A stretch of DNA of 37,059 bases from Deltaproteobacteria bacterium. GTDB lineage: Bacteria > Myxococcota_A > Polyangia > Polyangiales > Houyiibacteriaceae. The stretch's first letter is position 1; every line of letters begins with the position of its first letter. The position numbers and the translations under genes were made by a program. The DNA lies in the NCBI GenBank assembly GCA_019313915.1, contig JAFDAJ010000015.1:1-37059 (forward strand). The letters are read 5' to 3'. Of this stretch, positions 4,754 through 10,148 are shown piece by piece. A model generated the notes under the pieces. The model was not told where the DNA came from. It made no database searches and worked only from the letters and a program-made list of their open reading frames with translations.

Positions 4754-5839
4754 ATGACCACGACTGCATTGCTCACCGGTGCCGCGGGTAAAGTTGGCAA
4801 GTATGTCATCGGGGCGCTGGCCCGGCGTGGCATCCAGGTGGTGGCAACCGATATCGTCTCGAAGGGGATTCCCGACGATATTCGCTTCGAGGCTTGCGAC
4901 CTCACCGATGCTGCTGCGGTGCGCCGCCTCGTCTCGCTCGTGAAGCCCGACGTCGTCGTGCATTGCGCGGCGGTTGTTGCTCCGATCTCGTATGCCGAGC
5001 CCGAGCTTGCTGAAGCGGTAAACCTCGGCGGCACCCGGCATCTGATCGACGCGACGAAGACGCACGCGCCTGACGCGTTCTTTGCTTTTGTGTCGAGCTA
5101 CGCGGCGTTTGGGCCTTGCGCGCCGGGCGATCCGATTCGGCGCTCTACGGATCCGTGCTGGCCCGACGACAACTACGGCCTGCAGAAGCTCACGGCCGAG
5201 AGCTGGTTGCAGTATTCGGGTTTGCGCCAGTGCTCGCTCCGGCTCGGCGCGGTGATGGACCTCGACAACCTCATGCCGGCGCACCCGAGCTACCGTCCGT
5301 TCGTCTTCATGGTGTCGCTGGACCAGCCCGAGCACGGGGTCGACGTGCGGGACGCGGCGCGCGCGATCGCCTCGGCGGCTGTCCAGCAGCCTGACGGCCA
5401 TCTGCTCCTGATCGGTGGCGACGATTCGTGGAAGGTGCCGGCGCGCCAGCTGCGAGGGGAGATGTTTGGGGCGATGGGGTTGTCCATGCCGCCTGAGAAG
5501 GCGTTTCGGCCGGGCGCAGACCCCTCCGTAAAAGACGGCTGGTTCTACGAATGCTGGATGGATGAGAAGTACAGCGAGCAACTCCTCGGCTTCCAGCGGA
5601 TCTCCCGGGCCGCCTTCATGGACGAGCTCCGCAAACGCTACTGGGTGCAAAGGCTCGCCTTACTCCCCGTCCGCCCGTTCGTCTCCCGAACCTTGACTGC
5701 GGCCTCTCCCTACACCGGAAGACGCGCTATCAAGCCGGGGCCAACCTTGTGGAACGACGTCTTCCGAGTCTACGACCTCCCCTTCGAAGTAGCCCGCAAC
5801 CGCAGCAGTCAACCCCCACCGCCATCCCCCTTCGTGTAG
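4754..5839 (+). CDS. NAD-dependent epimerase/dehydratase (extended SDR)
   Basis: A 361-residue extended short-chain dehydrogenase/reductase. It has the Rossmann nucleotide loop TGAAGKVG at residues 8-15, an acidic residue after beta-2 (ATDIV) favouring NAD(H), an HCAAVVAP segment, VSSYAAFG with the catalytic Ser, and the YGLQK active-site Tyr/Lys motif. A clear AGGA ribosome site lies about eight bases before the ATG. The specific sugar or sterol-like substrate cannot be read from the sequence. It is transcribed divergently from the parvulin operon. Its stop (5837-5839) lies nine bases from the stop of mutH on the other strand. Confidence 0.9.
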   Translation: MTTTALLTGAAGKVGKYVIGALARRGIQVVATDIVSKGIPDDIRFEACDLTDAAAVRRLVSLVKPDVVVHCAAVVAPISYAEPELAEAVNLGGTRHLIDATKTHAPDAFFAFVSSYAAFGPCAPGDPIRRSTDPCWPDDNYGLQKLTAESWLQYSGLRQCSLRLGAVMDLDNLMPAHPSYRPFVFMVSLDQPEHGVDVRDAARAIASAAVQQPDGHLLLIGGDDSWKVPARQLRGEMFGAMGLSMPPEKAFRPGADPSVKDGWFYECWMDEKYSEQLLGFQRISRAAFMDELRKRYWVQRLALLPVRPFVSRTLTAASPYTGRRAIKPGPTLWNDVFRVYDLPFEVARNRSSQPPPPSPFV

Positions 5840-5848
5840 AAAAGGGGC

Positions 5849-6553
5849 TCACTCCGTGGCGCGCAGCCGAGCTAAGACTGCCTCGGTGAATGCCGGTCGC
5901 AGATAGAATCCGCGCGGCATCGTCCATTGTACGGCGCCTTCCTCGTCGGGCGCTCGACGACGGCTCCTCCCGTGCGGGGCTTTCGGGCGCACCTGCAACA
6001 CCTCGCCGAGGTGGCCGGTGATCTCTTCGACGTCGCCGGCGGCGATCATTTCGGCAAGCCGCTCCCAGTCGGTGCGCAACAATCGCTGCTCTTCCGGAGT
6101 CGGTGCCCACAGGTACGCGCGTCCGACTCTCCGGTCGCGGAGCGGGGTATCCGACGCCGCCTCGACCGGAACGAACAGCACCTTCGATAGCTTCTTGAGA
6201 ACGGTGCTCCGCTCCCAATCGGTGTCCGCCATCGCAGCGAGCGAAATCGAGCAGACGAAAGTCGACTCCTTCGGCTTCCCTCCCGCATCCAGCGGAATGG
6301 TTTTGAGCTCGATCCCGAGCTCCACGAAGTCCGGCTCCGCGCGCGACCCCGCCGTCGCGCCGAGGGCCTTCTCGAGAATCTGCCCGGCGATCCCTTTTGC
6401 GCGGAGCGATTCATCCGGCACCTCGACACCAACGCACGCGCCAAGCTCGCCGAGCGTGAGCCCCGCAACGTCCCACGCGCGGGAAAGCAGTTCCGCTTCC
6501 GATTCAGGAGGCCCGATTAGCCCTTTAGAAAAGGGGACTGTCCCCTTTTTCAT
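5849..6553 (-). CDS. mutH: DNA mismatch repair endonuclease MutH
   Basis: A 234-residue protein matching E. coli MutH (229 aa) along its length: LSPPETE-like start (GPPESEAELL), TLGEL, the catalytic core PDFVELGIELKTIPLD with Asp75, Glu82 and Lys84 of the D-Xn-E-X-K motif, Glu61, RRVGRAYLW, LRTDWE, QVRPKA and the C-terminal PRGFYL. In the known pathway MutS and MutL activate MutH to nick the unmethylated strand at hemimethylated GATC, so it implies Dam-type methylation. The ATG at 6553 shares a base with dnaE's ancestral stop (TAATG) and adjoins a REP-like palindrome that encodes residues 2-9; no other ATG or GTG is available before the conserved part. MutH is best known from Gammaproteobacteria, so its presence here suggests transfer. 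Confidence 0.93.
   Translation of the reverse strand: MKKGTVPFSKGLIGPPESEAELLSRAWDVAGLTLGELGACVGVEVPDESLRAKGIAGQILEKALGATAGSRAEPDFVELGIELKTIPLDAGGKPKESTFVCSISLAAMADTDWERSTVLKKLSKVLFVPVEAASDTPLRDRRVGRAYLWAPTPEEQRLLRTDWERLAEMIAAGDVEEITGHLGEVLQVRPKAPHGRSRRRAPDEEGAVQWTMPRGFYLRPAFTEAVLARLRATE
6529..6550. repeat. REP-like palindrome between dnaE and mutH
   Basis: Nine-base arms AAAAGGGGA and TCCCCTTTT flank a three-base loop (CTG). The same core recurs at 12783-12804, and a variant half at 18451-18476. A lone half arm, AAAAGGGG, stands at 5840-5847 at the other end of mutH. Here the palindrome lies directly after dnaE's ancestral stop and supplies mutH codons 2-9. Palindromes of this kind resemble REP elements mobilised by RAYT (Y1) transposases, but no such gene is in the window. 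Confidence 0.75.
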
Positions 6554-6810
6554 TAGTGGAGCTCGCAGACTTTGGTGCCGAAGAGGCGTTCTAGGCCGGT
6601 GAGGAGGGCGTCGCTTGGGTCTACGAAGAGGCCGGTTTCTGCGAGGTTGATGCGCCAGTCTCCTGGGGAGCTGAGTTCGAGGGTGACGGGGCAGGGGCCT
6701 GGGTATTGTTCGAGCATGGAGCGGAGGGAGTCGAGCTTGGCGCGGTCGATCGTTTCGACGGCGAGGCGGACGGTGATTGCGGTGGTGCGTTCCTGGAGGG
6801 CCTCTCGGGT
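6553..6810 (-). pseudogene. dnaE: Out-of-frame original C-terminus of dnaE
   Basis: On the minus strand, in a different frame from the main dnaE reading, codons from about 6810 encode TREALQERTTAITVRL, then LRSMLEQYPGPCPVTLEL, FVDPSDALLTGLERLFG and KVCELH, ending TAA at 6553-6555. This is the standard C-terminal domain of DnaE, which contacts the tau subunit. The beta strands that normally link the OB fold to this part look shortened, so a simple one-base slip does not fully restore the protein. The TAA overlaps the mutH ATG by one base. Either a real mutation or an assembly error is possible. Confidence 0.8.
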
Positions 6811-9800
6811 GCGGCGCTGTCGTCGTTGCGATCTTGCTCGTGCTTGACTCGGCCGGTCAGGAGGATGGGTTCACCCGACTGTAGAGCCTCGCGAATGCCG
6901 TCTTTTTCGAGCGGCTTTGGGCGGACGATTACTTCGACGCGGCCGAGCGAATCCTCGATGTGGAAGAACGCCATGGTGTGACCCATCTTCGTGCGGCGTT
7001 CGCGGTAGCCCTCGACCGTGCCGCCGACTGTGATCTGCCGGTGGTTGCCGAGCTGGGCCAAACTTTCGGTCGTCGCATCGCAGAAGCGAAGCAGCTCGCC
7101 TCGATAGCGGTCGAGTGGATGTCCCGACACATAGAACCCGAGCGTTCCTTTTTCCCGCGAAAGCTGATCGCGCGAGTCCCACGGGTTGAGCACAGGAAAG
7201 CTTCCGCCTGGGTGCTCGTAGGCCTCCGCATCTTCTTCGCCGCCCATCAGACCGAACAGGCTCTCCTGACCGCTCGAGCGCTCCGCCTGGATGCGCTTGC
7301 CTCGCTCAATCGACTGTTCAATCGCCACGAACGACTGCGAGCGATGCACCTGGATGGCGCTGTGAACCGTGTCGAACGCCCCGCATTGCACAAGGGCCTC
7401 GATGACGCCCTTGTTCACCCGACGCAAATCGACACGGGCGCAAAAGTCGAAGAGGTCGACGAAAGGCCGCTCGTGCGGCTCGCCGCCTTCTTCCTCGGGG
7501 TCACCCTGTCGCGCCTCGAGAATCGCCTCGACCGCTCCCGTGCCCACGCCCTTGATGGCGCCGAGCCCAAATCGAATCTTGGGCCCCATTGGATCGTGCA
7601 CGTCGCCGTTGTAGCAAACCGGTTTGTGACGAAGCCGTGCGATATCTTGTGCGTCGTCCGGCGCGTAGACGACGGTGAACTCGATCTCGGACTCGTTGAC
7701 GTCCGGAGGCAACACCGTGATCCCCATCGATCGCGCCTCGGCGACGGTGCGGACGACCTTGTCAATCTTCTCTTTATCAGCCGTCAGCGTCGCGCACGTG
7801 AACTCGACCGGAAAGTGCGTCTTGAGATATGCGGTCTGATACGTGATCAGAGCGTACGCTGCCGAGTGACTCTTGTTGAAGCCGTACCCTGCGAAGTACG
7901 CCATCAAGTCGAAGACCTCTTCGGCCTTTTCCTGTGTGTGGCCGCGCCCGGTAGCCCCCTCGATGAAGATGGCTTTTTGCTTGTCCATCTCGGACGCCTT
8001 CTTCTTGCCCATCGCGCGCCGCAACAGATCCGCGCCTCCGAGTGAGTAACCGGCCATCTCCTGCGCGATCTGCATCACCTGTTCCTGATAGACGATGACG
8101 CCTCGGGTCTCGCGCAGGATTCCTTCGAGGGAGGGATGCGGATATTCGACCTGTTGCCGCCCGTGCTTGCGATGAACGAAGTCCTTGTCCATCTGCGCGC
8201 CCATGGGGCCGGGCCGGTAGAGTGCGACCGCAGCGACGATGTCATCGAACCGATCGGGCCGGAGCTGTTTGAACAAGTTCTGCATGCCGCTCGATTCGAG
8301 CTGGAACACATTGGTGGTCTCGCCCGACTGCAACAGCGCGTAGGTCGCGTCGTCGTCCATCGGGACCTGGTCGATTCGGAACGGAGTCCCCTGGCGGTCT
8401 GGGCGGCGGTCGATCAGCTTCGTCGCGATGTCGATCACCGTCAGCGTGCGAAGCCCGAGGAAGTCGAACTTCACCAGGCCCGCTGCCTCGACGTCATCCT
8501 TGTGATACTGCGTGACGTAGACGTTTGGCTCGGGGCAGAACACGGGCACGTGGTCCCAAATCGGACCCTCGCTGATCACGACGCCCGCGGCGTGCATCCC
8601 TGCGTGGCGAGTCAGGTTCTCGAGGGCCTGCGCGGTGTCGAGCAGCTCGTGCGCTTGTTCGTCTTGTTCGTACGCGGTCTTGAGTCGCGCCTCTTGCTCG
8701 AGGGCATCGCTGATCGGCACACTCTTGCCGCCAACCGGCTCCGGAATCATCGTGGCGATCAACCCGGCTTCGCTCGGCGTCATTCCCATCACGCGTCCCA
8801 CGTCTCGCACGACACTGCGGCTCTTGAGCTGATGGAAGGTCGCGATCTGACCGACGCTCGCCTGTCCGTACTTGTCGCGCACGTACTGAATGACCCGGTC
8901 GCGTTGATCCATGCAAAAACCGATGTCGAAGTCCGGCATGGACACGCGCTCTGGGTTCAGGAACCGCTCGAACAGAAGCCCGTGTGTGATCGGGTTCAAG
9001 TCGGTGATGCGAAGCGCCCACGCGACCAACGAGCCGGCGCCCGACCCGCGCCCCGGGCCCACCGGCACGCCGTTGTCCTTCGCCCAGTTGATGAAGTCTT
9101 GAACGATGAGGAAGTAACCGGCGAAGCCCATCTTCAAGATGACGTCGAGCTCCAGCTCGAGCCTGCTGTGATACGAATTTTCTTCGAAGGTCTCGCCGCG
9201 GTCCCGCATCTCGACCATGCGCCGTCCTAGACCGGCAACCGACAGCGCTCGCAGGTAGTCTTCCTCGCTCGCACCGCCGGGCACCGAAAAACGGGGAAGC
9301 TTCGGATCTGCGAGCGGGGTGGCCTGGCCGGCGCACATCTCCGCGATCAAAAGCGTGTTCTTCGCCGCATCGGGAACGTGCGCGAAGAGGTTGAGCATCT
9401 GCTCCGGCGTCTTCAGATAGAGCTCCGAAGAGTGGTGATGCACCGCTTCCATCTCGCGAACGCTACGTCCCGCGCCGATGCACTGAAGCACGAGTTGCGC
9501 ATGCGCAGATTGGCGCTCGAGGTAGTGGCAGTCGTTGGTGCCGACCAGCGGAAGTTCGAGCTCTTTGGCGAGCCGGCCCAAGACCTCATTGAGCGGACGG
9601 TTCTCTGGGAAGCCATGATCCTGAAGTTCGACGAAGAAACGGCCGGGGTCGAACGAGTCGCGCAGCTTCGCGATCGCTTCACGCCCGACTTCGGGCCCCT
9701 TGTTGAGAATCTCCTGCGCCACATATCCACCCATGCACGCGCTCAGGCCGACGATTCCCTTGTTGTGCTTCTGCAGCACCTCGAAGTCGATACGCGGCTG

Positions 9801-10148
9801 GTCGTAGACAGCCATTCCGTCGACCCAGCCGGTGCTGACCAAACGCACGAGGTTCTGGTAGCCCTCCTGCGAGGTCGCGAGCAGCAACAGATGATGCAGC
9901 TCGTGGTTCTGCGGATCTCGGCGGTCGCCCGAGGTGAAGCTCACTTCGCACCCGAGGATCGGCTTCACGTCGGTCCCTTGGCACGCTCGCACGAGCTGCA
10001 CGGCGCCAAACATATTGCCGTTGTCGGTGAGCGCGACTGCCGGCATCTCCATCTTGCCCACGCTCTCGACGAGCTGCGGAATCCGGATGGCGCCGTCCAA
10101 CATCGAGAACTCGCTGTGAACGTGCAGGTGAACGAATTCGGCCGCCAT
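6621..10148 (-). CDS. dnaE: DNA polymerase III alpha subunit, 3' end frameshifted
   Basis: The replicative polymerase alpha subunit, 1175 codons in this frame. The N-terminal PHP domain opens with HLHVHSEFSMLDG; position 43 is Asn where a metal-binding His (TDHGN) is common. The palm has PGRGSGAGSLVAW, MPDFDIGFCMD (Asp406, Asp408) and VKFDFLGLR (Asp562), matching E. coli Asp401/403/555. Gly410 replaces the usual third Asp of PDFDxD. Beta-binding and OB regions follow (GRVEVIV, GEPILLTGRVK). After about residue 1105 the frame becomes Ser/Pro-rich and unlike DnaE. The true C-terminus continues in another frame to a stop at 6553-6555, so there is a frameshift, probably with a small deletion, at about 6810-6845. 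It lies 51 bp downstream of the TetR gene. Confidence 0.93.
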   Translation of the reverse strand: MAAEFVHLHVHSEFSMLDGAIRIPQLVESVGKMEMPAVALTDNGNMFGAVQLVRACQGTDVKPILGCEVSFTSGDRRDPQNHELHHLLLLATSQEGYQNLVRLVSTGWVDGMAVYDQPRIDFEVLQKHNKGIVGLSACMGGYVAQEILNKGPEVGREAIAKLRDSFDPGRFFVELQDHGFPENRPLNEVLGRLAKELELPLVGTNDCHYLERQSAHAQLVLQCIGAGRSVREMEAVHHHSSELYLKTPEQMLNLFAHVPDAAKNTLLIAEMCAGQATPLADPKLPRFSVPGGASEEDYLRALSVAGLGRRMVEMRDRGETFEENSYHSRLELELDVILKMGFAGYFLIVQDFINWAKDNGVPVGPGRGSGAGSLVAWALRITDLNPITHGLLFERFLNPERVSMPDFDIGFCMDQRDRVIQYVRDKYGQASVGQIATFHQLKSRSVVRDVGRVMGMTPSEAGLIATMIPEPVGGKSVPISDALEQEARLKTAYEQDEQAHELLDTAQALENLTRHAGMHAAGVVISEGPIWDHVPVFCPEPNVYVTQYHKDDVEAAGLVKFDFLGLRTLTVIDIATKLIDRRPDRQGTPFRIDQVPMDDDATYALLQSGETTNVFQLESSGMQNLFKQLRPDRFDDIVAAVALYRPGPMGAQMDKDFVHRKHGRQQVEYPHPSLEGILRETRGVIVYQEQVMQIAQEMAGYSLGGADLLRRAMGKKKASEMDKQKAIFIEGATGRGHTQEKAEEVFDLMAYFAGYGFNKSHSAAYALITYQTAYLKTHFPVEFTCATLTADKEKIDKVVRTVAEARSMGITVLPPDVNESEIEFTVVYAPDDAQDIARLRHKPVCYNGDVHDPMGPKIRFGLGAIKGVGTGAVEAILEARQGDPEEEGGEPHERPFVDLFDFCARVDLRRVNKGVIEALVQCGAFDTVHSAIQVHRSQSFVAIEQSIERGKRIQAERSSGQESLFGLMGGEEDAEAYEHPGGSFPVLNPWDSRDQLSREKGTLGFYVSGHPLDRYRGELLRFCDATTESLAQLGNHRQITVGGTVEGYRERRTKMGHTMAFFHIEDSLGRVEVIVRPKPLEKDGIREALQSGEPILLTGRVKHEQDRNDDSAAPERPSRNAPPQSPSASPSKRSTAPSSTPSAPCSNNTQAPAPSPSNSAPQETGASTSQKPASS

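Follow-up and report, generated by a model that had tools for sequence, protein, structure and literature searches.

A full-length MutH downstream of dnaE and probable methyl-directed mismatch repair in a member of the Myxococcota

Papers from 2021 describe methyl-directed mismatch repair, or the occurrence of MutH and Dam, as confined to a subset of the Gammaproteobacteria related to E. coli (PMC8235422, PMC8034640, PMC8744996). A MutL that lacks the nuclease motif is the state described for organisms using MutH (PMC8744996). In B. subtilis, P. aeruginosa and Caulobacter, repair is independent of MutH and pairs MutS1 with a MutL that is itself the endonuclease. Restriction endonucleases of the Sau3AI family have a nuclease domain homologous to that of MutH and also act on GATC. 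Our search of the literature, with most subscription journals outside its reach, found no report of MutH in the Myxococcota. Annotation pipelines will already name such genes MutH.

The DNA analysed here, referred to as the window, is a stretch of 37,059 nucleotides, contig C312 of a 4.4 Mb MAG that is complete by marker count. Its dnaE is about 92% identical to that of a genus mate (G173), and in the MutH tree its MutH forms a clade with those of genus mates with a support of 100, so the contig is not a contaminant. We take the host to be a member of the Myxococcota (Polyangia) and no gammaproteobacterium. The preliminary description had placed MutH in a non-gammaproteobacterial genome and allowed that the contig might itself prove gammaproteobacterial; the first is borne out by the myxococcotan host and the second is not. 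The features of the window discussed below are as follows.

5849..6553, minus strand: mutH, methyl-directed mismatch repair endonuclease, 234 aa with an ATG start, identified from the open reading frame, profile matches and alignment.
6552..10148, minus strand: dnaE, DNA polymerase III alpha, upstream of mutH and in the same direction.
6529..6549, no strand assigned: a 21-bp palindrome, AAAAGGGGACTGTCCCCTTTT, a dispersed REP-like repeat encoding MutH residues 2-8 (KKGTVPF).
5840..5847, plus strand: an isolated 8-mer, AAAAGGGG, where the epimerase gene and mutH converge, between their stop codons.
4754..5839, plus strand: an NAD-dependent epimerase-like gene, convergent with mutH; the same neighbour is found in genus mates G173 and G135.

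Profile scores and alignment confirm the reading frame at 5849-6553 as a genuine full-length MutH. It scores 107 bits with the Pfam MutH profile and exceeds the cut-offs of two NCBIfam MutH equivalogs, reaching 272 bits against 243 for NF003458, a curated full-length profile, and 238.7 bits against 229.9 for TIGR02248. E. coli MutH (1azo) aligns with residues 10-229 (E 9e-63), which upholds the earlier claim of a match across the length of the protein, and H. influenzae MutH also aligns. In contrast, Sau3AI enzymes of about 475-490 aa are roughly twice as long and have a second domain that the host protein lacks, and the host protein gains 62.6 bits with the Sau3AI profile against a cut-off of 300.

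The catalytic set Asp75/Glu82/Lys84 had been named correctly in the numbering of the reading frame. D75, E82 and K84 are invariant across 31 aligned MutH, as are E61, K53, K121, R189, P190, K191 and Y217, and the catalytic D/E/K together with the E56 equivalent are kept in all 163 standard MutH. Numbering differs from that of E. coli by a constant offset of five, E61 being E. coli E56, R189-P190-K191 being R184-P185-K186 and Y217 being Y212. We take R189-P190-K191 and Y217 to match the GATC-reading RPK and Y212 of E. coli, whose roles are known from MutH-DNA structures. Within the genus the dN/dS of mutH is 0.09-0.17, which indicates purifying selection.

A functional MutH, the preliminary description had reasoned, would need a Dam-like methylase and a MutL able to activate it. 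The genome has a Dam-family methylase and a MutL of a kind that should be compatible with MutH. The Dam-family methylase, on contig C424, scores 293 bits with TIGR00571 (cut-off 114.85). Its best PDB match is the GATC methylase DpnM (E 4e-68), followed by E. coli Dam (about 1e-47), and because it gains 196 of the 441 bits set for the stricter E. coli-type Dam equivalog, we infer its GATC specificity from homology. MutS1 is also encoded (864 bits). The single MutL of the host genome, 557 aa, has a good ATPase half and retains the MutL_C domain (90 bits); at the position of the nuclease motif DQHA(X)2E(X)4E it has DRQRADALVRYD, and CPHGRP has been lost as well. The genome thus combines MutS1 with a MutL that has no endonuclease site of its own. 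Among the genes that had been proposed for a genome search, dam, mutS and mutL were found and seqA, in the same genome, was not, although repair can proceed without SeqA. Elsewhere the genome encodes another adenine methylase of the D12 class, with a weaker score (126 bits; G000:C187:1627-2433, locus L033), beside a sensor-kinase-like gene. GATC is frequent and hardly avoided in the window, where 258 sites (observed/expected 0.92) have a mean spacing of 144 bp and a largest gap of 847 bp.

The sequences show directly which genes are present, which catalytic residues they keep or have lost, how they are conserved, and that mutH is under purifying selection; methyl-directed mismatch repair outside the Gammaproteobacteria is the likeliest role that these observations suggest in the host. 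Dam would methylate GATC, and fresh replication would leave hemimethylated GATC sites marking the new strand. MutS would detect the mismatch, and the nuclease-less MutL would activate MutH, which would nick the unmethylated strand of a hemimethylated GATC nearby; excision by a helicase and an exonuclease is assumed to follow. GATC methylation, activation of MutH by MutL and a repair phenotype are thus predictions of this scheme.

The host shares with E. coli and H. influenzae a MutH of full length whose catalytic and GATC-reading residues agree, a Dam-family methylase, MutS1, and a MutL with a dimerisation domain and no nuclease motif. It differs from them in belonging to another phylum, in having mutH follow dnaE with overlapping stop and start codons, in a Dam that resembles DpnM more closely than E. 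coli Dam, in a shorter MutL (557 aa) and in that SeqA was not found in its genome. With the MutL-endonuclease systems it has MutS1 and MutL in common; the host genus has lost both DQHA(X)2E(X)4E and CPHGRP, whereas many Myxococcota keep a nuclease MutL of the B. subtilis, P. aeruginosa and Caulobacter type, with or without MutH.

MutH and Dam might instead act outside mismatch repair as a restriction or defence-like pair similar to Sau3AI/DpnII, cutting unmethylated GATC. The shared fold of MutH and Sau3AI fits such a role, as does the origin of DpnM, the nearest solved relative of the host Dam, in a restriction system. Family f22 (L002, L012, L015, L305, L309 and L320), probably the Bradymonadaceae, also bears on it: these genomes combine MutH with a fully intact MutL nuclease, and most are without a Dam-family methylase. 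No obvious partner gene was seen beside mutH in the Bradymonadaceae neighbourhoods. We nevertheless regard a restriction role as improbable in the host. Its MutH has a single domain, passes the MutH equivalog cut-off and scores well below that of Sau3AI, and mutH and dam are each solitary, on different contigs. No restriction enzyme gene was recognised within 5 kb on either side of dam, whose neighbours are metabolic (aspartate carbamoyltransferase and alanine racemase, with an aminotransferase and dihydroneopterin aldolase also in genus mates); these surroundings are partly conserved within the genus. The loss of the MutL nuclease in the genus, moreover, is best understood if the cut is made by a different nuclease.

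We looked at MutL over the phylum, fetching it from 120 further genomes and classing 118 proteins, the window's own included. A strict DNA pattern for the nuclease motif was misleading, as it misses variants with a last-position E-to-D change and yields chance matches, so it was dropped and the actual MutL proteins were aligned. A MutL was classed as eroded when both the nuclease motif and the HGR motif were lost. On this definition 45 were eroded, 69 intact and 4 partial. MutH or a MutH-like gene is present in 39 of the 45 genomes with eroded MutL, the remaining six all belonging to one family (f11), while the 69 with intact MutL divide into 37 with and 32 without MutH. Outside f11, every genome without MutH has an intact MutL nuclease site. 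Fisher's test of eroded MutL against MutH presence gives p 2e-4 and ignores relatedness. On a tree of the N-terminal half of MutL at least 12 changes are required to account for the eroded state, and the phylogenetically independent pairs, about 3 to 0 in the expected direction, are too few for significance, so that the correlation is strong by the counts themselves and only suggestive once relatedness is allowed for. In the host's own family the MutL nuclease is intact in two MutH-carrying genera (G028 and G126) and lost in five others (g1 and g5-g8). Three MutH carriers with eroded MutL (G020, G025 and G127) are without a Dam match.

The MutL of family f43 is eroded and a first search gave at best a trace of MutH, so MutH-like genes were sought there. 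Widening the profile with divergent relatives recovered them in all three f43 genomes; of the genomes without MutH that were searched with them, three gave matches, only weak and partial. The MutH-like proteins of families f32 and f43 (L351-L358 and L364-L374) are divergent and single-domain, and in f32 the spacing from D to ELK is two residues shorter (DFGDWELK). Their genes occur alongside eroded MutL, at about 10 kb from mutL in two genomes (G058 and G214).

In the six f11 genomes (G095, G100, G131, G213, G218 and G228), which have an eroded MutL, neither MutH nor Dam was detected, the widened profile included. Either another nuclease serves MutL in this family, or its mismatch repair has changed or decayed. 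The f11 pattern would suit a reading in which loss of the MutL nuclease motif reflects decay of mismatch repair overall and MutH is a relic. For the host this seems very improbable, as its genus keeps an intact MutS and the ATPase and C-terminal domains of MutL, and mutH is under purifying selection.

The distribution of MutH argues for inheritance within the lineage. A full MutH occurs in about 88 of 284 genomes sampled over the phylum, or 100 when weak ones are included, and the host's family has it in each of the 12 genomes sampled. Lineages stay together in the MutH tree far more than in shuffles. Vertical inheritance of a gene common in the lineage, which the preliminary description had set out as the outcome that would count against its own view, is what this phylogeny and the family-wide presence indicate. 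The dnaE-mutH pair is conserved in three families of the order, with the same-strand order found beyond the genus in two genomes of the host's family (G028 and G081) and in three of two other families (G023, G256 and G269).

In the window the TAA stop of dnaE overlaps the ATG of mutH as TAATG once a 37-bp gap in dnaE is allowed for, and the earlier placing of mutH directly after dnaE was correct; across the genus the mutH start is overlapped or abutted by the dnaE stop. Compared with all genus mates, the window dnaE is without 37 bp at about 6800-6820, which causes a frameshift near the end of the gene. Downstream of the gap the dnaE frame runs on to the normal C-terminus. dnaE is an essential gene, and the gap in it probably arose in assembly.

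The palindrome and the 8-mer had been described as bordering mutH, the one as a REP-like repeat and the other as a half arm, and as hinting at acquisition. Neither survives as an insertion mark. The palindrome lies inside mutH, as codons 2-8, and does not border it. Exact copies number 26 in the host genome and 0-20 in the genus mates searched, and there were none in three genomes searched outside the genus. The palindrome is a later decoration of mutH and no scar of acquisition. An 8-mer of the AAAAGGGG type is expected by chance about once per 37 kb, and this lone copy gives no evidence of a repeat arm. In other species of the genus (L028 and L312) the mutH start bears other palindromic repeats, GGGGTCTGACCCC in G135 and a degenerate form in G018. 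As the palindromes at this position differ between species, the N-terminus of MutH has been remodelled repeatedly by repeats.

That MutH was picked up recently or is a stray, brought in from Gammaproteobacteria or by a mobile element and without an integrated role, is scarcely credible: it is patchy in the phylum, at about a third of genomes, and a repeat overlaps its start, but it is fixed at the level of both genus and family, groups with its own lineage at a support of 100, has a low dN/dS and a dnaE neighbourhood conserved in three families, and the repeat is dispersed and genus-wide.

An ancient transfer of MutH into the phylum is possible. A quick tree rooted on divergent relatives suggested that gammaproteobacterial MutH is nested inside the Myxococcota, a placement that we rejected. 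A tree constrained to keep the Gammaproteobacteria as one clade fits better than the nested one, and the root of the quick tree sits on a long branch, so we claim no direction of transfer.

We are fairly confident that the host has a vertically inherited, functional MutH serving repair of the E. coli type, and that MutH is old in the phylum, with repeated later decay of the MutL nuclease. Since MutH and an intact MutL are found together in many genomes, MutH probably came first, and loss of the nuclease followed repeatedly in MutH carriers, among them the host genus. We also lean, somewhat tentatively, towards a broader account in which the Myxococcota reached the E. coli-like end state separately from the E. 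coli lineage. Many lineages would have held a dual system of MutH and a nuclease-competent MutL, the MutL nuclease would then have been lost many times, including in the host genus, with all the transition steps preserved, and the Bradymonadaceae would make use of MutH in the absence of a Dam-family methylase.

This evolutionary series of MutH and MutL across the Myxococcota appears to be undescribed so far. As the MutL nuclease sites of the phylum range from intact through partly lost to fully lost, the replacement of the MutL nuclease by MutH becomes a set of repeated, testable cases and no longer a one-off. It also shows the risk of taking MutH to mark a gammaproteobacterium or to indicate transfer.
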